Of a DNA stretch of 44,179 nt, positions 19,050 to 36,492 are shown in pieces. Source of the DNA: Desulfocapsa sp. (GTDB taxonomy: Bacteria; Desulfobacterota; Desulfobulbia; Desulfobulbales; Desulfocapsaceae); NCBI GenBank assembly GCA_030145625.1, contig JAQYVF010000034.1:1-44179 (forward strand), read 5' to 3'. The notes under the pieces are model-generated. The model did no database searches, was not told the origin of the DNA, and saw nothing but the letters and a program-made list of their open reading frames with translations. How positions within the stretch are numbered: position 1 is the stretch's first letter; each line of letters starts with the position of its first letter. The position numbers and the translations under genes are program-made.

Positions 19050-19937
19050 ATGACGGCAAAGCTTATAAACGGTACAGAGGTAGCTAAGGCAATTCGCGAG
19101 GAGTTGACTGTTGAGGTTTCTGAATTAAAAGAAAAGTATAGTATAGTACCTGGTCTTGTAACTATTCTTGTCGGAGAGGATCCTGCATCTCAGTCCTACG
19201 TTGCTGCCAAAAATAAAACTGCCCATGCCTTAGGTATCCATTCTGAGCAGGTTACCCTTGATGTTGACACCAGTGAAGAAGATCTGCTGGCCCTTGTCGA
19301 TAAATATAACAACGATCCAAAAATTAACGGTATTCTTGTTCAGTTACCCCTTCCCAAGCACATCAATGAAGCAAAAGTATTATATGCCATTAATCCGGAT
19401 AAGGACGTGGACGGTTTTCATCCGGTAAATGTCGGTAAGATGGTGCTTGGAGAGGAATGCTTTCTCCCTTGTACCCCCCACGGTATACTTGAACTGCTCA
19501 CCAGGAGCGGAGTAGAAACCAGTGGAGCGGAGGTTGTGATCATCGGCAGGTCCAACATTGTTGGTAAGCCCATCGCCAATTTGATGTTGCAGAAGCGCAA
19601 TGCTGGCAATGCCACCATTACCCTCTGCCACACAAGGACCAAAGACATGGCAGCTCACTGCAGACGTGCAGATATTATCATTGCCGCAGTCGGTGTTCCC
19701 AAGATGGTTACCGCTGACATGGTCAAAGATGGAGCAGCCATTATTGATGTTGGTGTGAACCGCATAGGCCAAGCTGCCAACGGAAAAGCGATCCTGGCCG
19801 GTGATGTCGATTTTGAAGGAGTGAAGGAAAAGGCTTCATGTATCACCCCGGTTCCTGGTGGCGTTGGTCCCATGACCATTACTATGTTAATGAAAAACAC
19901 TGTACAGGCCGCCAAGATGGCAGCCAATCTTAGCTAA
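19050..19937 (+). CDS. folD: Bifunctional methylene-THF dehydrogenase / methenyl-THF cyclohydrolase FolD
   Basis: A 295-residue FolD. It interconverts methylene-, methenyl- and formyl-tetrahydrofolate with NAD(P)H, here as the middle of the methyl branch. The active-site set Tyr50, Lys54 and Lys56 (YVAAKNK) has the same numbering as E. coli FolD. QLPLPKHI, DVDGFHPVN, GRSNIVGKP and TPVPGGVGPMT are all present. The ribosome site TTGAGG precedes the ATG at suitable distance. It is the first gene of the co-directional cluster, 63 nt before cooS. A weak ACGG/CCGT hairpin in that gap may be a processing or attenuation site. Direction (CO2 fixation or C1 oxidation) cannot be read from sequence. Confidence 0.96.
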   Translation: MTAKLINGTEVAKAIREELTVEVSELKEKYSIVPGLVTILVGEDPASQSYVAAKNKTAHALGIHSEQVTLDVDTSEEDLLALVDKYNNDPKINGILVQLPLPKHINEAKVLYAINPDKDVDGFHPVNVGKMVLGEECFLPCTPHGILELLTRSGVETSGAEVVIIGRSNIVGKPIANLMLQKRNAGNATITLCHTRTKDMAAHCRRADIIIAAVGVPKMVTADMVKDGAAIIDVGVNRIGQAANGKAILAGDVDFEGVKEKASCITPVPGGVGPMTITMLMKNTVQAAKMAANLS

Positions 19938-20000
19938 TATCTAGAAACAAGATTTTTAAGACGGTTTTTGTGCCGTTTATCATTGTTCCGGAGGATAATT

Positions 20001-21989
20001 ATGAGCAACAGCAAAGGTGGATGCGAATCCTGTAACGAAATCACCGGTGCTTCTACCAAAGACCTGCTGAACCAGGATTTGGCTAAACAGGTAAGGACGG
20101 CCTACGACCGTATTGAGGATCGTGGCGTTGCATCCTGTCTTTTTGGTTCAGGAGGAACCTGCTGCCGTAACTGTAATATGGGTCCATGCCAGATCATCGA
20201 TGGGGTTGAGTCTATGATCGGCGTTTGTGGTGCCACGGCTGCCACTGTTGTCGCCAGAAATTTTGCCCGTACTGTTGCTGCTGGAACTGCAGCACATACT
20301 GATCATGCTCGTGAAATGGTCATGGGCTTTATTGAGACTGCCAAGGGGAATACTCCGCATGGAATCAAGGATGTTGCCAAACTGCATGATATGGCAAAGA
20401 TCTTCGGAGTGGAGATCGAAGGCAGGGATAAGAACGAGATAGCTTTGGAGCTAGGTGAGAAAGCCTTGGCTGAATTCGGCCAGCAGAAGGGTACCCTCGC
20501 CATGCTCAAGCGTGCTCCCGAAAAACAGCAGAAGATCTGGAAGGAAAAAGGTGTTGAGCCCAGAGGGATTGATCGCGAGGTTGTAGAGACCATGCACCGC
20601 ACTCATATGGGTGTGGATCAGGAATACAAAAATATCATGAAGCAGGCTGCCCGTTGTTCTCTGGCCGACGGCTGGGGGGCGTCCATGCTCTCCACTGAAC
20701 TCACGGACATCATGTTCGGTACCCCTGTTCCCAAGCGTGCCATTGTTGATCTGGGTGTGCTCAAGGCCGATCAGGTAAATGTCACCGTGCATGGGCACGA
20801 ACCACTGCTTGCCGAGGCCCTCTGTCTGGCCGCCGAAGATGAAGAGGTGTTGGCTCTAGCCAAAAAAGTTGGTGCCAAGGGTATCAATCTAGCAGGTGTC
20901 TGCTGTACCGGCAATGAGATCCTTATGCGTCGTGGGATTCCGGTTGCCGGCTCTTTTATCCAGCAGGAGATGGTCCTGGCCACAGGCGCTGTTGAGGCCA
21001 TGGTCGTCGACGTTCAGTGTGTCATGCAGTCGGTGGCACAGGTGGTTAAAGAGAAACATACCGATATTATTACCACCAACTACCGGGCCAAGATGCCCGA
21101 TGCGATTCATATGCAGTTTGAGGAAGAGGATGCATTGGGTTCTGCCAAGAGAATTCTCACCCATGCCATCAATAACTTCAAAAAGCGCGGCGAATACTAC
21201 ATCCCTAAAAATAACAAGATTGATGTCGTTGTCGGATTCAGTCATGAGACCATCAATTATATGCTTGGTGGTCGTTTTCGTCAGAGTTATCGTCCGCTTA
21301 ATGACAATATTATCAATGGCCGTATTAAGGGGATCGGTGCTCTGGTTGGCTGCGAGCATTATAAATACTCCGATGATGTCCACTTCAAGATAGCTGTTGA
21401 ACTCTTAAAAAATAACGTTCTTGTCCTGGCTACAGGCTGTGCTGCACAGGCCTTGGGAAGAATGGGGCTGATGCGGCCCGAGGCGGCATCGGAGTATTGC
21501 GGTGCAGGGCTTGCCGAGGTCTGCGAGACTGTAGGTATGCCTCCGGTTCTGCATGTGGGTTCTTGTGTTGACAACAGTCGCCTGCTTATTGCGCTTACTG
21601 AAATTGTTAAAGAAGGTGGGCTTGGAGATGATATTTCACAAGTTCCTGCCTGTGGTACCGCGCCTCTCTGGATGAGTGAAAAAGCGGTGGCCATCGGGCA
21701 ATATTTTGTTACCTCCGGAGCGCATGTCATCTTCCAGAATCTCCCGATAACCGGATCCAAACAGATGAGTGACTTTCTTCTGGATGGAATGAAAGAAGAA
21801 TACGGTGCCTGCTGGGATTGTGAAGAAGATCCAATTAAACTTGCACAGAAGATGATCAAGGCCATTGACGGAAAGCGTGAGGCCCTGGGAATTAATAAGA
21901 AACAGGATCGCGTACTCTTCGATATGGAGATGCGTCGTGATCTTAGCTCCGGACAAGGTGTTTCCGGAGTGGGATGCGGACAGAAGTAA
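20001..21989 (+). CDS. cooS: Anaerobic Ni-containing carbon-monoxide dehydrogenase catalytic subunit (CooS/AcsA)
   Basis: A 662-residue protein that reversibly reduces CO2 to CO at the Ni-4Fe-5S C-cluster. The N-terminal cysteines (ESCNE, then SCLFGSGGTCCRNCNMGPCQI) supply the D- and B-clusters. C-cluster motifs are the His-containing VHGHEP near residue 264, GVCCTGNE, VVDVQC, GCEHYKYSDD, TGCAAQALG and HVGSCVDNSR. All expected ligands appear present. The frame opens 33 nt earlier, but the ATG at 20001 follows a perfect GGAGG. Next to acsB and the corrinoid protein genes, it is most likely the CO-generating partner of acetyl-CoA synthase (AcsA role), not an energy-converting CO dehydrogenase. 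No cooC/acsF nickel-insertion ATPase is in the window. Confidence 0.96.
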   Translation: MSNSKGGCESCNEITGASTKDLLNQDLAKQVRTAYDRIEDRGVASCLFGSGGTCCRNCNMGPCQIIDGVESMIGVCGATAATVVARNFARTVAAGTAAHTDHAREMVMGFIETAKGNTPHGIKDVAKLHDMAKIFGVEIEGRDKNEIALELGEKALAEFGQQKGTLAMLKRAPEKQQKIWKEKGVEPRGIDREVVETMHRTHMGVDQEYKNIMKQAARCSLADGWGASMLSTELTDIMFGTPVPKRAIVDLGVLKADQVNVTVHGHEPLLAEALCLAAEDEEVLALAKKVGAKGINLAGVCCTGNEILMRRGIPVAGSFIQQEMVLATGAVEAMVVDVQCVMQSVAQVVKEKHTDIITTNYRAKMPDAIHMQFEEEDALGSAKRILTHAINNFKKRGEYYIPKNNKIDVVVGFSHETINYMLGGRFRQSYRPLNDNIINGRIKGIGALVGCEHYKYSDDVHFKIAVELLKNNVLVLATGCAAQALGRMGLMRPEAASEYCGAGLAEVCETVGMPPVLHVGSCVDNSRLLIALTEIVKEGGLGDDISQVPACGTAPLWMSEKAVAIGQYFVTSGAHVIFQNLPITGSKQMSDFLLDGMKEEYGACWDCEEDPIKLAQKMIKAIDGKREALGINKKQDRVLFDMEMRRDLSSGQGVSGVGCGQK

Positions 21990-22045
21990 TCAAACGAGAA
22001 TACTATTCTTGAACAGGTTTATTCTTGGCAGGAGGGGTCCAACCG

Positions 22046-24694
22046 ATGAAGTCGGGCAGTAATCTAGAAACACTATTGAAAGAGGGGACATTCGCTGTAA
22101 CTGGTGAACTCGGTCCCCCTAAAAACGGTAATCCGGAGATAGTTCGCGAAAAGGCGAGGCTGTTAAAAGGAAATGTGGATGCAGTCAATATCACCGACTG
22201 CCAGACAGCCATTGTGCGCATGTCTTCCATTGCAGCTGGCTTGATTGCCAAAGAGGAAGGGCTTGAACCCGTTATCCAGATGACTTGCCGTGATCGAAAT
22301 CGGATCGGAATGCAGTCGGATATTTTGGGTGCCTCAGCTCTTGGCTTGAAAAACCTGCTCTGTCTCACTGGAGATCACCAGAAGTTTGGTAATCATCCCG
22401 GATCAAAAGGGGTCTTCGATATGGACTCCATTCAACTTCTCGGCATGATGAAGGGGATGCGTGATGATAAACGGTTCCAGTGCGGAGAAGAGATCAAGAG
22501 CAATGAGCCCAGGCTTTTTTTAGGAGCTGCAGCCAATCCCTTTGCCAATCCCTTTGAATATCGTGCGGTACGCCTTGGCAAAAAGGTGACAGCCGGCGCT
22601 GATTTTGTCCAGACGCAGATCATCTACAATGTAGAAAAATTTGCTAAATTCATGGAGATGGTCAGGGATCTTGGTCTCGATGAGAAATGTTATATCCTTG
22701 CCGGTGTCACACCGCCCAAGTCATTGGGTATGGCACGTTATATGAAAAACTTTGTTCCCGGTATGGATGTCACGGATGATGTGATCCAGCGAATGAAGGA
22801 TGCCAAGGATAAGCAGGAAGAAGGAATCCAGATCTGTGTTGATATTATCAACCAAGTAAAAGAGATCAAAGGAGTTTCTGGTGTCCACTGTATGGCCATT
22901 GAGTGGGAAAGCGCAGTTCCTGAAATTCTTCAGCGAGCAGGACTTCTTCCCAGGCCCGGTATCACCGAAACTGATGAACCAGCCGTCGCAGAAGAAACGC
23001 GAGAGTCCATTAGCGTGCAATCGGCCGGTACGGATGAATTGCTCGAAAAGGCCAAAGTTGAGGCAGAACAGATTATTGCGGCGGCTCGAGCTGAGGCAGA
23101 AAAACTCATGCAGAAGGCCAAGAGCGATGCTCCACAGGCTTCGACTCCTGCAGCCATCGATACAATTACTAGCAGAACAACTGACGTACCTCAGGGTGCG
23201 GATGATTCAGGAGAGCATGAAATGAATGAGAAGGAACGGATCATGGCCCTTGAAGCGGTACATCAGGGTCTTGCCGCATTGAAGAAAGCGTATGGATTGA
23301 GTGACGATCAGTTTGAAGCCTTAGCAAGTTTTGCCGGAGCCCAGGTCATTTTAAAACGGGAACCTGAGATGACACCGGTTGCTACTCCAACTCCAGTTGC
23401 ACCAGCAACTGCGGCTGCACCTGCTCCTCCTGTCGATGATAGTGCTGAAAAGGCTGCAGCAGCAGCCAAGGTCAAAGCTGAGGAAGAGGCCAAGATCGCA
23501 GCTGAGGCAAAGGCAAAAGCCGCGGCCGATGCGGCAGTTGCAAAGGCAAAGAGTGATGCAGATGCCAAAGCTGCAGCAGATGCTAAAGTCAAGGCTGAAG
23601 AAGAAGCAAAAGTGAAAGCTGAAGCAGATGCCAAGGTTAAAGCTGAGGCCGATGCAAAAGCTACTGAGGACGTTAAGGTCGTAGCACCTGCTCCTGGCTC
23701 TGATGCTGTTGAACTTGCTAAAGAAAGTATCACTCTTGTTGATCGTGGCAGCAAGATAGACCCCAAAAGTTATCAGGCCAAATACACAGGTAATATTCGT
23801 TCGGTAAAACTTGGAAATGGTGATAATATCAGGACCATAGGTGGCTCTTCTTCCATGCCTTTCCAGCTCTTTGAGGGGGAACATCCTAATAAGCCTCTCA
23901 TCGCTATGGAAGTTATGGATGTAAAACCTGATGAATGGCCGGAAACATTGACCCAACACTTCAGTGATGTTCTGGACAATCCTGTTGCATGGGCGCAAAA
24001 ATGTGTAAAGACCTATGGTGCAGAAGCCGTTGCCATCTCCCTCGGTTCCACTGACCCTAACGGTATGAATCGTCCTGCTGCCGATGCCGCCAAAGTTGCA
24101 GCAGAGGTTATTGCAGCAGTTGATGTGCCGATTATTGTTTGGGGTTGTGGAAATGCAGATAAAGATACCGAGACCTTAAGAGAGATTACTTCCATCATTG
24201 GTGACAAAAAGGTCTGTCTCTCTCCTCTGGAAGATTCCAACTACCGCACCATCGGTGCTACTGCCATGGCCTTCCAGTATCCCATAGTTGCCGCATCCCC
24301 CATTGATGTCAACTTGGCCAAGCAGCTGAACATCCTGTTGGAAAATCTCGGTGTACCTTTGGACAGTGTGCTCATGGATCCTTCTGTCGGTGCCCTTGGT
24401 TATGGTATCGAGTATACCTACTCGGTCATGGAACGTATCCGCATTGCAGCCCTGACCCAGCAAGATGATAAGCTCCAGGTCCCCATTATTTGTAACCTTG
24501 GTTGCGAGGTATGGAAGGCCAAAGAGACCAAACTGCCCAGTGATGATATGATTGGAGATCAGGAGATCCGTGGCATCATGATGGAAGCCGTTACTGCCAG
24601 CTGTATGCTCATGGCGGGTGGGGAAATCATGATCATGCGTCATCCCAAGGCTATTTCCATGACTAAATCACTGATTTCAGGTCTCATGGACTGA
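22046..24694 (+). CDS. Fusion: methylene-THF reductase MetF - coiled-coil linker - corrinoid Fe-S protein small subunit AcsD
   Basis: One continuous 882-codon frame. Residues 1 to about 300 are a MetF TIM barrel (FAVTGELGPPKNGN, NITDCQTAIVRMSS, CLTGDHQKFGNHPG, FVQTQIIYN, LAGVTPPKSLGMARY) that makes methyl-THF. Residues about 330-360 are a coiled coil (LLEKAKVEAEQIIAAARAEA). A 393-440 segment looks like a small helical domain (NEKERIMALEAVHQGLAAL). Residues about 467-545 are an Ala/Lys/Glu repeat (VKAEADAK units). Residues about 556-882 are AcsD/CdhD-type delta subunit (PFQLFEGEHPNKPLIAMEV, MDPSVGALGYGIEYTYSVM). The TTG at 22025 is less likely than the ATG at 22046, which follows AGGAGGGG. An internal ribosome site and ATG at 23222 could yield a separate 490-aa AcsD. 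The two enzymes act in sequence through methyl-THF and the corrinoid protein. No zinc-binding MetV partner is seen. Confidence 0.9.
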   Translation: MKSGSNLETLLKEGTFAVTGELGPPKNGNPEIVREKARLLKGNVDAVNITDCQTAIVRMSSIAAGLIAKEEGLEPVIQMTCRDRNRIGMQSDILGASALGLKNLLCLTGDHQKFGNHPGSKGVFDMDSIQLLGMMKGMRDDKRFQCGEEIKSNEPRLFLGAAANPFANPFEYRAVRLGKKVTAGADFVQTQIIYNVEKFAKFMEMVRDLGLDEKCYILAGVTPPKSLGMARYMKNFVPGMDVTDDVIQRMKDAKDKQEEGIQICVDIINQVKEIKGVSGVHCMAIEWESAVPEILQRAGLLPRPGITETDEPAVAEETRESISVQSAGTDELLEKAKVEAEQIIAAARAEAEKLMQKAKSDAPQASTPAAIDTITSRTTDVPQGADDSGEHEMNEKERIMALEAVHQGLAALKKAYGLSDDQFEALASFAGAQVILKREPEMTPVATPTPVAPATAAAPAPPVDDSAEKAAAAAKVKAEEEAKIAAEAKAKAAADAAVAKAKSDADAKAAADAKVKAEEEAKVKAEADAKVKAEADAKATEDVKVVAPAPGSDAVELAKESITLVDRGSKIDPKSYQAKYTGNIRSVKLGNGDNIRTIGGSSSMPFQLFEGEHPNKPLIAMEVMDVKPDEWPETLTQHFSDVLDNPVAWAQKCVKTYGAEAVAISLGSTDPNGMNRPAADAAKVAAEVIAAVDVPIIVWGCGNADKDTETLREITSIIGDKKVCLSPLEDSNYRTIGATAMAFQYPIVAASPIDVNLAKQLNILLENLGVPLDSVLMDPSVGALGYGIEYTYSVMERIRIAALTQQDDKLQVPIICNLGCEVWKAKETKLPSDDMIGDQEIRGIMMEAVTASCMLMAGGEIMIMRHPKAISMTKSLISGLMD
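23209..23224 (+). promoter_or_regulatory. Internal ribosome binding site and start codon within metF::acsD
   Basis: AGGAGAG (23209-23215) is followed, six nucleotides later, by an in-frame ATG at 23222 (codon 393 of the fusion) starting MNEKERIMALEAV. Quality and spacing are as good as those of the real starts in this cluster. It would give a 490-residue AcsD with its Ala/Lys-rich N-terminal extension, alongside the full fusion. Confidence 0.5.
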
Positions 24695-28504: not shown

Positions 28505-31500
28505 ATGAATACTGTAACGCTTAACATAAACGGCTGTGAGGTCGTTGCTGAAAAGGATCTAACCATCTTAGAGGTGGCCAGGCGATCCGATGTTACCATT
28601 CCCACCCTCTGTCATGTGGAAGGAAAACCTTCGGACACGCCTTGTCAGATGTGTGTGGTCGAAGTTGAGGGCCGGGATGAGTTGATGCGTTCCTGTGTGA
28701 CCCTGGCAAAAGAGGGAATGGTGGTGAATACTGTTTCCGATAGAATCACTGCCCACCGTCAGGAACGACTCGGCATCTTAGCTGAGACGCATTTTGGTGA
28801 CTGCAAGGCTCCCTGTAACTTGACTTGCCCAGGTCAGATTAATGTGCAGGGCTATATCGCTCATGTGGCTAAGGGGCAGTATGAAGAAGCCTTGCGTCTG
28901 GTCATGGAACGTAATCCCATGCCCTTTTCTGTCGGTCGTGTCTGCCCACGTTTTTGTGAAACCAGATGCCGTCGTCTCCTTGTGGATGAGCCTGTCTCCA
29001 TTAATCACCTCAAGCGCTTCGTTGCAGATTGGTGCATGACACATGAGATCGAGCTTAAAATTCCTAAGGATAAACCCACCGGAAAACGTGTTGCCGTTAT
29101 CGGTGGTGGTCCAGCCGGACTTACAGCCGCCTATTTTCTTACCAGAAGAGGGCATGATGTAACCATCTACGAAGCCGCTCCAAAACTTGGAGGAGCTCTT
29201 CGTTACGGTTTTCTTGAGTATCGCATACCGCGTGATGTACTTGATTATGAGATCAATGCCATTCTGCGCCTTGGAATTTCAGTGAAGTTGAGTCAGAAAT
29301 GGGGTGTTGATTTTACCATTCAATCTCTCAAAGATCAGGGCTATGATGCCATTTTTATTGCATCAGGCGCTGGTGTAGATATACCTCTCAATATTAAAGG
29401 GTGTGTCAATCCCCATGTATATTCTGGCATGAACTACCTCAAAAAGGTGGCTGAGGGCAAGAAGCTTGATATGGGGAAACGCTCTGCGGTCCTTGGCGGC
29501 AACAACATAGCCATGGAAATAGCCCGTACCTTACTGCGTCAAGGAGTAGAAGAGGTCACCGTTGTTTATCCCCAGGCCAGGGTAGAGATGCCAGCCCACC
29601 AGCGAAATATCAGGGAGGCAGGAAAAGAGGGGACTCAGTTTTTGCTTATGGCCTCTCCTGTAGAGATATGCGATGCTGAAAATGAACCCACTCGTCTGAA
29701 ACTTGAAGTGGTCAGGATGAAACTGGGTAAACCTGACGATAAAGGAAAGAGAAGTCCCGAACCTATTCCAGGTTCTACGACTATCCTGCAAGTTGATTCC
29801 ATTGTTTCATCTCTTGGCCAACTCGCTGTCAGCGAGCACTTCGAAGGGGGAGAGCTGGAAGAATCCATTGCACTTTCGCCTCGCAACATGATTGTTGCCA
29901 ATCCGAGAAGTTCTCAAACCAATATAGATGGAGTTTTTGCCGGTGGGGATGCTGCCACCGGACCAAAATCAGTCATTCAAGCCGTGGTCTCTGCGAGAAG
30001 GGCTGTCACCAACATGCATGCCTATATCATGGGTGTGGAAAAAGAACCGGCTGATAATCGTTTCAATTTTACCCGTGGTAAGGGGTTTGATGATGTATCC
30101 CTCAAAAATTTTGATGATGTTAAAGTTACTCTCCGTGAAAAAATGCCTACCAGGCCACCGGAGATCTGTCGTCAGGATTTTGACGAGGTTAAGTTGGGTT
30201 TTACAGAAAAAATGGCAATTAGAGAGGCAGAGCGGTGTCTATCCTGTGGGTGTACTGCATTTGAGCGCTGTGATCTGAAAAAACTCTCCATTGATAACAA
30301 GGTCAATATCAATAAGACCGGAATGGGTACAACGCCAATCTATGGCAAGGATTACTCACACCCCGCCTTTATTGTTGACCGTGATAAGTGTGTATTCTGT
30401 AAACGTTGCGAACGTGCCTGTGAATACGATGCCTTGACAATCACAGCTGATTCTTTAGATGAGAAAGGGCGTCCCCTTGGGCTCGGAATCAACTTTAAAG
30501 AAAACTGTGTTTCTTGTGGTGCCTGTGTAGATAATTGCTCCACAGGAGCTCTGAACAAAAAGGCTCAGATTATCCCAATACAGGGAGAAGAGATTAAAGA
30601 TGTACGTACTACCTGCCCGTATTGCGGAGCAGGATGTCAGATGCTTCTCCGGGTTAAGGGCGATACCATTATAGAAGTGACTTCTGAGAAGCATCTTGCC
30701 CCCAATTATGGTGCGCTCTGCGTCAAGGGTCGTCTGGGGCATGAATTCATTCAGCATAAAGACAGGTTGAGAAAACCCTTGATCCGTAAAAATGGAATGC
30801 TGGTCGAGACTACCTGGGATGAGGCCCTGGAATACACTGCCAAGAAGTTTTTTGACATCAAGGCCATGCATGGCCCTGATTCCATTGCCGGTTTCAGCTG
30901 TGCCCGTGCAACCAATGAGGAAAATTACCTCATGCAGAAGTTCATGCGAACTTCCATAGGGACGAACAATATAGATCATTGCGCTCGACTCTGACACGCT
31001 CCCACGGTGGCCAGTTTGGCCCTCACCTTCGGAAGCGGCGCAATGACAAACTCAATCATGGATTCGAGGAACACAGACCTGTTCCTCATGATTGGTTCCA
31101 ATCCGGATACCGGGCATCCGACAATCGGTATGCGAATTCACCAGGCAGTCAAGCGCGGTGCAAAACTCATTGTCGTCGATCCACGCAAGACAAGACTTGC
31201 TGAAAATGCCGATCACTGGCTGCGAATAATACCAGGTACTGATGTTGCTTTCTTGAATGGCCTCATGCACATAATCCTGGAAGAAGATCTTTGGGATAAG
31301 AAGTTTGTAGAAGAACGGACCGAGGACTTTGACGAATTGGTCCAGGTGATGAAAAAATATACACCGGATTACGTCTCTGAAATAACAGGATTATCCACTG
31401 AACAGCTTTTCACGGTAGCAAGGATGTATGCCGCTCAAGGTCGTCATGCGATCTATCATGGAATGGGTATTACCCATTATGTTACCGGGACTGATCGTGT

Positions 31501-32674: not shown

Positions 32675-35600
32675 ATGGGTAAAGCAATACTGCACAGGGA
32701 AGGGGCTGTGATGATACTCGGCGGAGGTATCGCCGGTATTCAGGCCGCCCTGGATATGACCGAGCTTGGTTATTATGTCTATCTGGTCGAAAAATCAGCT
32801 GCCGTGGGCGGTGTTATGGCCCAGTTGGATAAGACTTTTCCGACCAATGACTGCTCGCTCTGAATCCTGGCGCCTAAGCTGGTAGAGGCCGGTCGGTCTC
32901 CCAATATAGAGATGGTCACCAATGCAGATTTACTCGCATTGGAAGGAAAACCTGGAAATTTTACTGCCAAACTGAATATTCGTCCGCGTTATATTGATGC
33001 GGATGCCTGTACTGCCTGTGGGCTTTGTACTCAGTACTGCCCTAAACACCATGTGGATCCTTACAATGAAGGGTTGGCAATCACGCGCCCCATCCACATC
33101 GATTATGCCCAGGCCGTTCCTGCAACTTATTACATCGATCCTTCGTCCTGTATGTATCTTCAGCACGATACCTGTCAGATCTGTGTTCCTGTCTGTCAGA
33201 GCCATGCGATCAATTTTAATCAGAAACCTGAGGCACGCGACCTGAAGATAGGAGCAGTGATCCTTTCTCCCGGCTTTGGTAAGATTGCTCCTGAAACTCT
33301 GGAAAAATACGGATACGGCAAACATCCTGACATTGTCACTGCTTTTGAATATGAGAGGATGACCACAGCTTCAGGACCGTTCTTAGGTGAGATTAAATGC
33401 TTTTCTGACGGTCGCCATCCAAAGTCTATGGCCTTTATTCAGTGCGTCGGCTCCAGGGATATTGGTTGCAATAACGGCTACTGTTCTTCGGTCTGCTGTA
33501 TGTATGCCATCAAAGAGGCCTTGGTAACCAAGGAACATGATCCGGACGTGGATATAACCATCTACTACATGGATATTCGTACTCAGGGTAAGGACTTTGA
33601 CGCGGCCCGCGAACGTGCAGAGGCCATAGGGATTAAATTTGTCAGGGCCAAGGTTGCTGATGTGACCCCTTGGGAGAATCATCTCAAATTGACTTATTCC
33701 ACCCTCGATGGTCAACATAAATTTGAATCCCACGATATGGTCGTTCTTTCTGTGGGGCTTGAATCTCCAAAAGACGCTGAAAAGATAGCAGATATCACTA
33801 AGATCGATCTCAATCACTATAATTTCTGTAAGACTGATACGTTTTCCCCACTGCAGACCAGCCAGGAAGGAATTGTAGTCGCAGGTGCCTTTCAAGGACC
33901 CAAGGATATTCCTGAGTCTGTAACCCAGTCTTCCGGTGCCGCCTCTCTTGCCTCTTCTGTGCTGAAACAACAACGAGGGAAGGGAACAGTAAGTAAAGAG
34001 TATCCGGAAGAACTTGTTGTTACCGATGACGACGAGGTACGGATCGGTGTCTTTGTCTGTCACTGCGGCATTAATATCAGCTCTGTGGTTGATTGTCCTG
34101 AGGTCGCAGAGGATGCCGGTGGCATGGAAAATGTCACCTACTACACTGAGAATCTCTACTCTTGTTCTCAGGATGCACAGGAACAGATCAAAAACACCAT
34201 TAAAGAGAAAAAACTGAATCGAGTCGTTATTGCCGCATGTTCGCCAAGGACTCACGAGCCCCTTTTTCAGGAGACCCTGAAGGATGCCGGTTTGAACCGG
34301 AATCTCTTTGAGATGGTAAATATTCGTGACCAATGTTCCTGGGTTCATGCCAACGAGCCGGAAGAGGCCACCGCAAAATCCAAGGATCTCGTGCGAATGG
34401 CCGTTTCCAAGGCCGCGCATATTCAGCCCTTGCCAGAGCAGACTGTTCCTGTCACTCCCAAGGCCGTTGTCCTTGGCGGAGGTGTTGCCGGAATGACTGC
34501 CGCTCTCTCTCTTGCTGATCAGGGTTTTGATTCTGTCATTGTTGAGAAATCTGCCAAGATCGGCGGTAACCTACAGAACCTGAAAAACACCCTTGCTGGT
34601 GATGAGGTTGCAGGGTATCTGAAGACTCTTACTGATAATGTGAAGAAGTCTAAGAGAATCGATGTAATAACTGATGGTAGACTTGCCCAGACTTCCGGCT
34701 TTGTCGGCAATTTTGCATCTGTTATCGAGAGTGGAAAAGGTACAAAAAAGAAAGAACTGACCGTTGATCACGGTGTTATCGTTGTGGCAACCGGTGGTCA
34801 TGAGCATCGTCCTGATAAATATCTGCTTGGTAAATCCAAGAAGGTTCTGACGCAGCAGGAACTGGAAAAACAATTGGCTGGTCGGGCCAAAAATCGTGCA
34901 CCCGATTCAATTGTCATGATTCAGTGTGCAGGTTCCCGTGGTGATGATCTGAATTACTGTTCCAAGGTCTGCTGTAACCATGCCATTAAAAATATCCTCA
35001 AGATAAAAGAGATCAACCCGGCCTCCCAGATTATCGTCCTTTATCGGGATATGCGTACCTACGGATATGCCGAAGATGCTTATCTTGAGGCTCGCAAGAA
35101 AGGTGTTATCTTTATTCCTTATGAGGTTGATCGCAAACCGGAAGTGAGCCAGAAATCAGGGAAGGTACAGGTTGATTTCTTTGATTCCATCATGCAGGAA
35201 GAGGTGAGTTTCAATCCTGATCTGGTAGCTCTTTCTGTGGGTGTTGTTCCTGACGGTACCGCTGAACTTTCCAAGATGTTGAAGCTGCCTGTTACTGCCA
35301 ATGGTTTTTTCCTGGAGGCTCATGTCAAGCTTCGCCCTGTTGAGCTGGCAGTGGAGGGTGTCTATGTCTGTGGACTTGCTCATGGACCGAAACCCGTCGA
35401 TGAAACAATCGTCCAGGCCCAGGCCGCTGCTGCTAAAGCTGCCATTCCTCTGGTTAAAGGCTACGTCAAAGTGGATCCTATTGTTTCCAGTGTGGAAAAG
35501 GATGCCTGTATTGGTTGCGGCATCTGTGTCAGCCTCTGTCCTTATGGAGCCATCCAGATGATAAAGGTGGATAAGAAACGAAAGGCCGAGACCATCTCTG

Positions 35601-35889: not shown

Positions 35890-36492
35890 ATGTCAGAGAA
35901 CACTTTCAGCCCAAAGATTCTTGGGTTCCTCTGTAACTGGTGCTGTTATGCGGCCGCAGATGCAGCGGGAGTTTCACGCTTCCAATACCCGCCAAACCTT
36001 CGCACTATCCGGGTGATGTGTACCGGCAGGATTGACCCTTCCTTTGTCCTTAAAGGCTTTCTGGAGGGGGCTGACGCCATCTTCAGCGGCGGCTGACAAC
36101 TTGGTGAATGTCATTACCAGGTCGGTAATTATGATGCAATGGGAATGGATGCACTGGTAAAAAAGGTGCTCAAAGATGTTGGGATCCGAGAAGAGCGTTT
36201 TAGTCTGCAATGGGCATCTGCTGCCGAGGCCCCTCGTTTCGTCCAGTTGATTACAGAATTCACCCAACAGATGAAAGAACTTGGCCCAATTGGTGAGGCG
36301 GAAGGGCTCTCTAAGGAAGAGGTTCATGAAAGAATCTCCAAGGCCCTGGATGCCGTATCCAGTCAAAAGGTTCGTGTCAGTTTTGGTAATGCCGCAAAAG
36401 CTGTTCGTAAAGACGGCATCTGGACCAACGAACACATCAGTGAGATTATCAATACAAAGATGGAGAAGTCTCTCGCTTCGTTGAGTAAGTAA
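35890..36492 (+). CDS. mvhD: Selenocysteine MvhD-like electron-transfer subunit (UGA = Sec69)
   Basis: Read through the UGA at 36094-36096 this gives 200 residues. MvhD is the small iron-sulfur protein that passes electrons to HdrA from a hydrogenase or formate dehydrogenase. [17 protein letters not shown] and [22 protein letters not shown] are family hallmarks. The Sec lies in [15 protein letters not shown], where most MvhD proteins have Cys in the metal-binding GC(H/Q)xGxCHY segment. It is longer than the roughly 140 aa of methanogen MvhD because of a helical C-terminal extension. The frame opens at 35827; the ATG at 35890 is preferred as it begins the conserved N-terminus and follows GGAGAAG. 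Last gene of the cluster, followed by a strong hairpin. Next to hdrA it should link FdhA or MetF to HdrA. Confidence 0.92.
36113..36129 (+). other. SECIS-type hairpin directing Sec insertion in mvhD
   Basis: ATTACC (36113-36118) pairs perfectly with GGTAAT (36124-36129) around the loop AGGTC, which contains the canonical GGUC. The loop starts 23 nt after the UGA, close to the ideal spacing. Best SECIS of the three. Confidence 0.75.

Follow-up and report, generated by a model that had tools for sequence, protein, structure and literature searches.

The 44,179 nucleotides of contig JAQYVF010000034.1 (Desulfocapsa sp., assembly GCA_030145625.1), hereafter referred to as the window, contain a gene of the Wood–Ljungdahl pathway in which metF, encoding methylene-tetrahydrofolate (THF) reductase, is fused to acsD, encoding the small subunit of the corrinoid iron–sulfur protein. 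Here, we describe this fusion, its spread among relatives, and a Shine–Dalgarno sequence with ATG that is conserved within the linker between the two halves.

The fused gene and its linker

The gene and its domains are located as follows:

22046–24694, + strand: metF–acsD fused gene; product of 882 residues, 94.3 kDa; single open frame, kept in relatives
22046–22960, + strand: MetF (methylene-THF reductase) domain, residues 1–305; Pfam MTHFR, Foldseek matches to Thermus and other MTHFR structures
23030–23125, + strand: predicted linker helix, coiled-coil-like, residues 329–360; AlphaFold model, sub-threshold match to ATP synthase b
23228–23353, + strand: conserved helical hairpin, residues 395–436 (helices 395–415 and 420–436); AlphaFold model, alignment conservation
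23441–23695, + strand: Ala/Lys/Glu-rich arm, about residues 466–550; composition, alignment, and model
23771–24691, + strand: AcsD (small subunit of the corrinoid iron–sulfur protein), residues 576–882; Pfam CdhD, structural match

Translation of the window from the ATG at 22046 to the stop codon ending at 24694 gives 882 residues without an internal stop. The fusion in one 882-codon frame had been claimed in a sequence-only reading of this DNA, and the frame, Pfam, NCBIfam, and Foldseek all agree with it. PF02219 (MTHFR) covers residues 8–299 (profile positions 3–287 of 287; 6e-38), which indicates a full-length MetF domain, and Glu21 and Asp110, which we take to be the catalytic acid and the Asp of known MTHFR enzymes, are invariant in 51 aligned rows. 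PF03599 (CdhD) spans residues 587–865 (2.9e-42). The AcsD half scores 371.6 bits against NCBIfam NF003376, above its cut-off of 280, and stays under the cut-offs of NF003377, NF040759, and TIGR00381. Foldseek identified the AcsD fold in 4djd_D (1e-29), 2h9a_B, 2ycl_B, and 9fzy_E.

The linker comprises residues 306–575 and has the three parts that the sequence-only reading had described, with a length of 270 residues instead of the roughly 250 estimated there. An AlphaFold model of the whole chain (mean predicted local distance difference test score, pLDDT, 74.2; predicted template modeling score, pTM, 0.46) contains a MetF barrel and an AcsD barrel, the linker parts being of low confidence. 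The model has a long linker helix at residues 467–524, and residues 467–552 contain 36 Ala, 17 Lys, and 11 Glu among 86. In database scores, the linker hairpin (window 23186–23395, residues 381–450) resembles the helix-loop-helix repeat of transcription activator-like (TAL) effectors. The whole-chain E-values sum many near-identical repeats; no single stretch passes an E-value of 1 with the family profile, and Pfam gives 0.11. We make no claim of relatedness, and the likeness is probably due to chance or convergence.

A Shine–Dalgarno sequence and putative start codon conserved inside the linker

While the sequence-only reading was right about the fusion, it missed a conserved internal ribosome-binding site and start at 23209–23224. 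The features concerned are:

22030–22035, + strand: Shine–Dalgarno AGGAGG of the first start, ATG 22046; from the sequence, pairing energy −10.8
23209–23213, + strand: internal Shine–Dalgarno AGGAG, 8 bases before the internal ATG; GGA of codon 389 invariant
23222–23224, + strand: internal ATG (Met393), at which free AcsD is proposed to begin; conserved, in frame
23222–24694, + strand: proposed second product, a free AcsD preceded by the hairpin and the Ala/Lys/Glu arm; predicted 490 residues, 51.7 kDa

The DNA at the site is ATTCAGGAGAGCATGAAATGAATGAG, i.e., AGGAG, 8 bases, and then ATG. In the protein alignment, a variable stretch gives way here to a conserved one that opens with D-[SA]-G-E-H-E-M-N-E-K-E-R, the mean majority fraction being 0.77 over residues 387–440 compared with 0.38–0.51 over residues 306–386 (0.40 over 367–386). 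Codon 389 (Gly) is GGA in all 56 distinct Desulfobulbales-type genes with the motif, a set obtained from 62 distinct genes by leaving out six without it (L046, L051, L052, L056, L058, and L140), all outside Desulfobulbales. Overall, GGA accounts for 576 of 3383 Gly codons, and in L066 (titled Candidatus Electronema) the 61 Gly codons include a single GGA, at codon 389. None of the other 34 of the 35 conserved Gly columns exceeds 0.71 in this respect, and only two of 302 conserved columns, Gly389 and Gln78, are codon-invariant. Third-base conservation in six-codon windows is best for windows starting at codons 386–392, slightly helped by the invariant Met. When changes are counted on a tree that leaves out the linker, codon 389 has none, whereas each of the other 123 conserved four-fold columns requires at least seven; the median over all 124 is 19.

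One could suppose that GE-H-E-MNEKER owes its conservation to the protein sequence alone, and the residues themselves are indeed conserved in Desulfobulbales. Selection on the protein, however, cannot fix the third base of Gly389 at zero changes where other columns need seven or more, and we regard this explanation as very improbable. An in-frame start with a Shine–Dalgarno sequence that is conserved beyond the protein code is what characterizes a two-start gene, and both were found here.

Just one of the 19 conserved Met columns, Met393, has GGAG at a constant distance in every gene; the next columns for a Shine–Dalgarno-like word are Met864 (68% of genes) and Met250 (29%). The third base is rich in A/T in the codons just after the ATG (0.82, 0.79, and 0.93, vs. 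0.47 overall), and about 85% of windows drawn at random from the same gene are more stable than the mRNA around the ATG (median). Shine–Dalgarno words of at least five bases precede 0.275 of the linker ATGs in 58 genes, compared with 0.025 in the MetF part and 0.046 in the AcsD part. The pairing energy at the internal site has a mean of −7.38 (n = 56), in line with operon starts at −6.2 (FolD), −7.7 (AcsB), and −6.8 (HdrA), and 9.2% of 1746 other in-frame ATGs pair as strongly.

The peptide EHEMNEKE had served as a pattern in locus searches, which could favour genes bearing the motif; Gly389 lies outside this pattern. Among loci retrieved by whole-genome searches, independently of any peptide pattern, all 32 of L080–L108 and L142–L144 have the motif, and codon 389 is GGA in 46 of 46 (14 distinct versions of the 21-base site, some loci repeating one genome).

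Based on these data, we propose, with a probability of about 0.7, that this is a two-product gene, giving a 94.3-kDa MetF–AcsD and a 51.7-kDa free AcsD whose old start was kept in the linker. Alternatively, only the full-length fusion would be made, AGGAG acting as a ribosome pause that lets MetF fold first and the ATG encoding merely a conserved Met. The site would suit such a pause by its position, where the MetF half and the variable linker part give way to the conserved hairpin. A pause does not need a start codon, though, and yet an ATG stands at the fixed distance in 56 of 56 genes; the A/T-rich codons after it and the open mRNA are marks of a start, and the acsD genes of relatives with split genes begin at the matching place. 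We therefore consider pausing improbable, and initiation at the internal ATG the better explanation.

Outside Desulfobulbales, an internal start is less well supported. In the other groups, Shine–Dalgarno words of at least five bases precede 0.173 of the linker ATGs, compared with 0.025 (MetF) and 0.032 (AcsD). In family f42, the fused genes L147, L148, L170, and L169 (the same gene as L192 and L210) carry a strong Shine–Dalgarno sequence (−10.2) followed by an ATG, just before a helical stretch, and the split acsD genes of L206 and L207 start with MQNEKELLK.., aligned with this internal ATG of their fused f42 relatives. A comparable site before the hairpin was seen in L150 and L165 (ATG) and in L160 and L163 (GTG).

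Several observations weigh against the proposed internal start. When the codons before Met393 were redrawn synonymously from each gene's own codon usage and scored against the extended anti-Shine–Dalgarno, a median of 48% of draws matched the pairing strength of the real site. A pattern search of this assembly did not recover the 16S 3′ end, so that the anti-Shine–Dalgarno was assumed, and the Shine–Dalgarno-like word of Met864, seen in 68% of genes, has no plausible role. Beyond Desulfobulbales, a linker ATG with a Shine–Dalgarno sequence occurs in 21 of 32 genes, near-copies included, with a mean of 0.72 compared with 0.48 by synonymous redrawing. The short fusions L184, L185, and L189 lack a site before the hairpin, and L145 and L146 lack one at the matching place. 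Homology between the Desulfobulbales and f42 hairpins was not established (hhalign probability 11.5%); the shared place of the start is hence positional evidence. Pairing energy was discarded as proof of the site since, given the 48% of redraws of equal strength, it does not discriminate, and it is codon invariance that carries the case.

In eight distant fused genes (L046, L056, L058, L152, L156, L157, L159, and L161, out of 21 examined), a conserved Met (MASQKEAEV..) was observed near residue 376, upstream of the hairpin and mostly behind GAGGAGG. It is a possible alternative internal start; coding for Glu-Glu-Ala alone can yield the Shine–Dalgarno word in front of it.

Spread and origin of the fusion

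The same fusion was sought in relatives, as the sequence-only reading had suggested, and was found widely. A search of 395 genomes of the phylum at 1e-60 gave matches in 292, and at least 40 of the 395, counted among the matches listed, carry the fusion as one stop-to-stop frame, as did 40 of 40 when rechecked. The stop-to-stop recheck was used because the open-frame column of the search does not break at stops (G399 and G417 appear long in it but have separate genes). Full-length matches in a two-contig genome (G009) and a single-contig genome (G038) each form a single frame. In a search of related genomes, 53 of 56 matched. The loci from a separate search include full-length relatives titled Desulfocapsa, Desulfobulbaceae, and Candidatus Electronema; one titled Thermodesulfatator (L050) is cut. 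Some genomes of the window's own family have a separate MetF and a separate AcsD (about 516–544 residues). Six genomes of the window's order (family f12: G045, G055, G141, G170, G223, and G331) gave no MetF/AcsD match at 1e-60, and two of them (G045 and G055) gave none even at 0.001.

A frame survey covered 92 loci with a MetF match of at least 250 bits on the + strand, loci on the − strand being skipped. In 77 of these, which encode 62 distinct proteins, the fusion is unbroken, although a contig end truncates some of them. Among the remaining 15, 11 run off the contig end (L011, L012, L013, L044, L045, L047, L049, L050, L053, L072, and L106), and the others have a TAG within the MetF half (L022), a frameshift in the Ala/Lys/Glu repeat (L034), Ns in the linker (L037), or a frameshift in the small domain (L071). 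L125 (genome G052), outside the surveyed loci, has a TAG in the AcsD half. Two intact separate genes were found neither among these 15 loci nor in L125. The breaks in these few draft genomes (L022, L034, L037, L071, and L125) are what would speak for an assembly or sequencing error, that is, a missed stop or frameshift between neighbouring genes. With 77 unbroken loci and 40 of 40 rechecked phylum genomes, single-contig ones included, the chance that the fusion is such an artifact is negligible, and the suspicion of an assembly error at the linker can be dropped, since the frame is unbroken in relatives, closed genomes included.

Linker length ranges from 214 to 451 residues across 51 aligned rows. 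In the distant fused genes L051 and L058 and in the cut L050, TPR repeats lie inside the MetF–AcsD linker, as if the tether there also bound a partner.

To address the origin of the fusion, trees were built by a quick method from selected rows, comprising 56 MetF and 56 AcsD halves, each set made up of 30 fused and 26 separate rows. Each tree needs two changes between the fused and separate states. In the AcsD tree, which carries a long-branch warning for L123, L224, and L201, a single clade with a support of 99 contains the fused rows plus L206 and L207; the same group is weak in the MetF tree (support 43). The split genes L206 and L207, the latter from a single-contig genome, are nested in a fused subclade of 11 rows with a support of 99 in both trees. 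Because these two lie inside a well-supported fused subclade, the trees fit one origin of the fusion followed by one later re-splitting. The stop between the halves that the sequence-only reading had named as evidence against the fusion does occur in these two relatives, but as a later re-splitting according to the trees. In family f64, metF and acsD are neighbouring genes (L204 and L205), and the state before the fusion may have resembled this arrangement.

The re-splitting bears on the value of the tether. Two products could be made while the tether is idle: read-through of a lost stop would be harmless, free AcsD would do the work, and the full-length protein would serve as MetF only. Consistent with this, two related genomes re-split the gene with the pathway genes still adjacent, and the linker varies widely in sequence as well as in length. 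A join without any use should, however, have been lost more frequently; the frame has remained intact in at least 40 of 395 phylum genomes, and the conserved hairpin and the long arm are retained throughout Desulfobulbales. We consider an idle tether unlikely, although less so than pausing, and favour two products with a working tether.

Operon setting, proposed function, and comparison with known systems

The neighbouring genes of the pathway are:

19050–19937, + strand: FolD-like gene (methylene-THF dehydrogenase/cyclohydrolase); translation, named by sequence reading and not by family scan
19971–21989, + strand: CO dehydrogenase catalytic subunit (AcsA/CooS); NCBIfam TIGR01702
24751–26955, + strand: AcsB, acetyl-CoA synthase; NCBIfam NF040764
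27131–28483, + strand: AcsC, large subunit of the corrinoid iron–sulfur protein and partner of AcsD; NCBIfam NF003195

The fused gene lies between the CO dehydrogenase gene and the genes for AcsB and AcsC, which are followed by those for formate dehydrogenase, HdrA, and MvhD; AcsD is thus encoded beside AcsC, AcsB, and CO dehydrogenase, the neighbourhood expected for it. The genes for AcsE and its activator RACo are adjacent on another contig (C103), and a MetV gene is located on contig C34 next to MvhD- and HdrC-like genes (the latter two named by sequence reading). As the sequence-only reading stated, neighbouring Wood–Ljungdahl steps are joined, MetF and AcsD being in one protein. Its further claim that the fusion connects the methyl and carbonyl branches was overstated: MetF and AcsD are both methyl-branch enzymes, and moving the methyl group still requires a separate AcsE. 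With AcsE encoded elsewhere, methyl transfer is left to a dedicated enzyme, for which the fusion is no substitute.

In-frame TGA codons were observed in the genes for formate dehydrogenase (30992–30994; ..DHCARL-TGA-HAPT..), HdrA (32861–32863; ..TNDCSL-TGA-ILAPK..), and MvhD (36094–36096; ..FSGG-TGA-QLGECHY..), which are likely to be three selenoproteins in one operon. Contig C90 encodes a second, single-chain protein of 508 residues (L129, 956–2482), in which a MetF-like half (31% identity) is combined with a MetV C-terminal domain.

In the mechanism that we propose, metF became fused to acsD in such a way that the linker retained the ribosome-binding site and start codon that acsD had before. 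One mRNA would yield full-length MetF–AcsD (882 residues) from the ATG at 22046 and, probably besides it, free AcsD (490 residues) from the ATG at 23222. Every copy of AcsD, tethered or free, would pair with AcsC to give the corrinoid iron–sulfur protein. Copies from the first start would hold MetF on a long, jointed tether, so that methyl-THF is made beside the corrinoid protein that accepts the methyl, the separate AcsE assisting its transfer. Copies from the second start would allow more corrinoid protein than MetF and keep free AcsD in step with AcsC. The fusion, its spread, and the conserved Shine–Dalgarno sequence plus ATG inside it are observed, whereas initiation at this ATG in cells, the relative amounts of the two products, and any advantage of the tether are inferred. 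It seems reasonably likely that the acsD start is under selection and that the ratio of the two ribosome-binding sites sets the share of corrinoid protein that carries MetF.

If this is correct, a single gene shows how a fused pathway enzyme can keep the numbers of its parts right, by combining a tethered form with a free subunit, and fusion, buried gene border, and later re-splitting can be traced within one family. Annotations and proteomics of this CO2-fixation gene would then list one product where two are likely in Desulfobulbales, among them disproportionating sulfur bacteria and cable bacteria.

The sequence-only reading knew of no described fusion of this kind. However, a “mthfr/acsD” fusion of Desulfurivibrio alkaliphilus AHT2 (DaAHT2_0827) is listed by Melton et al. 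2016 (PMC5016858), whose figure follows an MLMS-1 gene cluster from another paper. The window gene matches this description, with MetF and AcsD in one frame within an acs gene cluster; it is the same joined gene in the same gene cluster. The accessible part of that account does not mention the linker, its spread, or an internal start. In a literature search of main texts, as far as accessible, Melton et al. 2016 was the sole source to name the fusion, and none described internal initiation for acsD. Hence, the fusion itself is already in print.

The separate AcsD proteins of Moorella and Carboxydothermus (4djd, 2h9a, and 4c1n) resemble the AcsD half, with 41–44% identity (4djd_D and 2h9a_B) and a template modeling score (TM-score) of 0.88–0.92 by target length, but, unlike the window fusion, have no attached MetF, hairpin, or arm. 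Separate AcsD proteins of other Desulfobacterota (e.g., L114–L122) have a domain that is about 49–53% identical and also an Ala/Lys/Glu-rich arm. Their arm is C-terminal and ends in a short conserved motif (..EKIL.MLNR.H+R), and MetF is a separate gene. Derivation of the linker domain from this extension was ruled out since the arm of separate AcsD is C-terminal.

Like the MetFV–HdrABC system of Moorella, as described in the available part of PMC10553843, the window operon has hdrA and mvhD, and MetV is encoded beside mvhD- and hdrC-like genes on C34; unlike in that system, MetF is joined to AcsD. In Desulfurivibrio dismutans, the accessible text of PMC12142623 reports similar expression of the cluster RS08760–08725 and places the pathway genes RS08760–08740 next to fdhAB, hdrL, and mvhD; this expression pattern speaks neither for nor against a short form.

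Genes with two in-frame starts that give a long and a short product are known from aerR (PMC6199135), and pairs of N-terminal proteoforms from one frame with two starts are known from Salmonella (PMC11005335). Compared with what the available parts of these papers describe, the short product proposed here would be a whole enzyme subunit from a fusion, and its internal start an old gene border.

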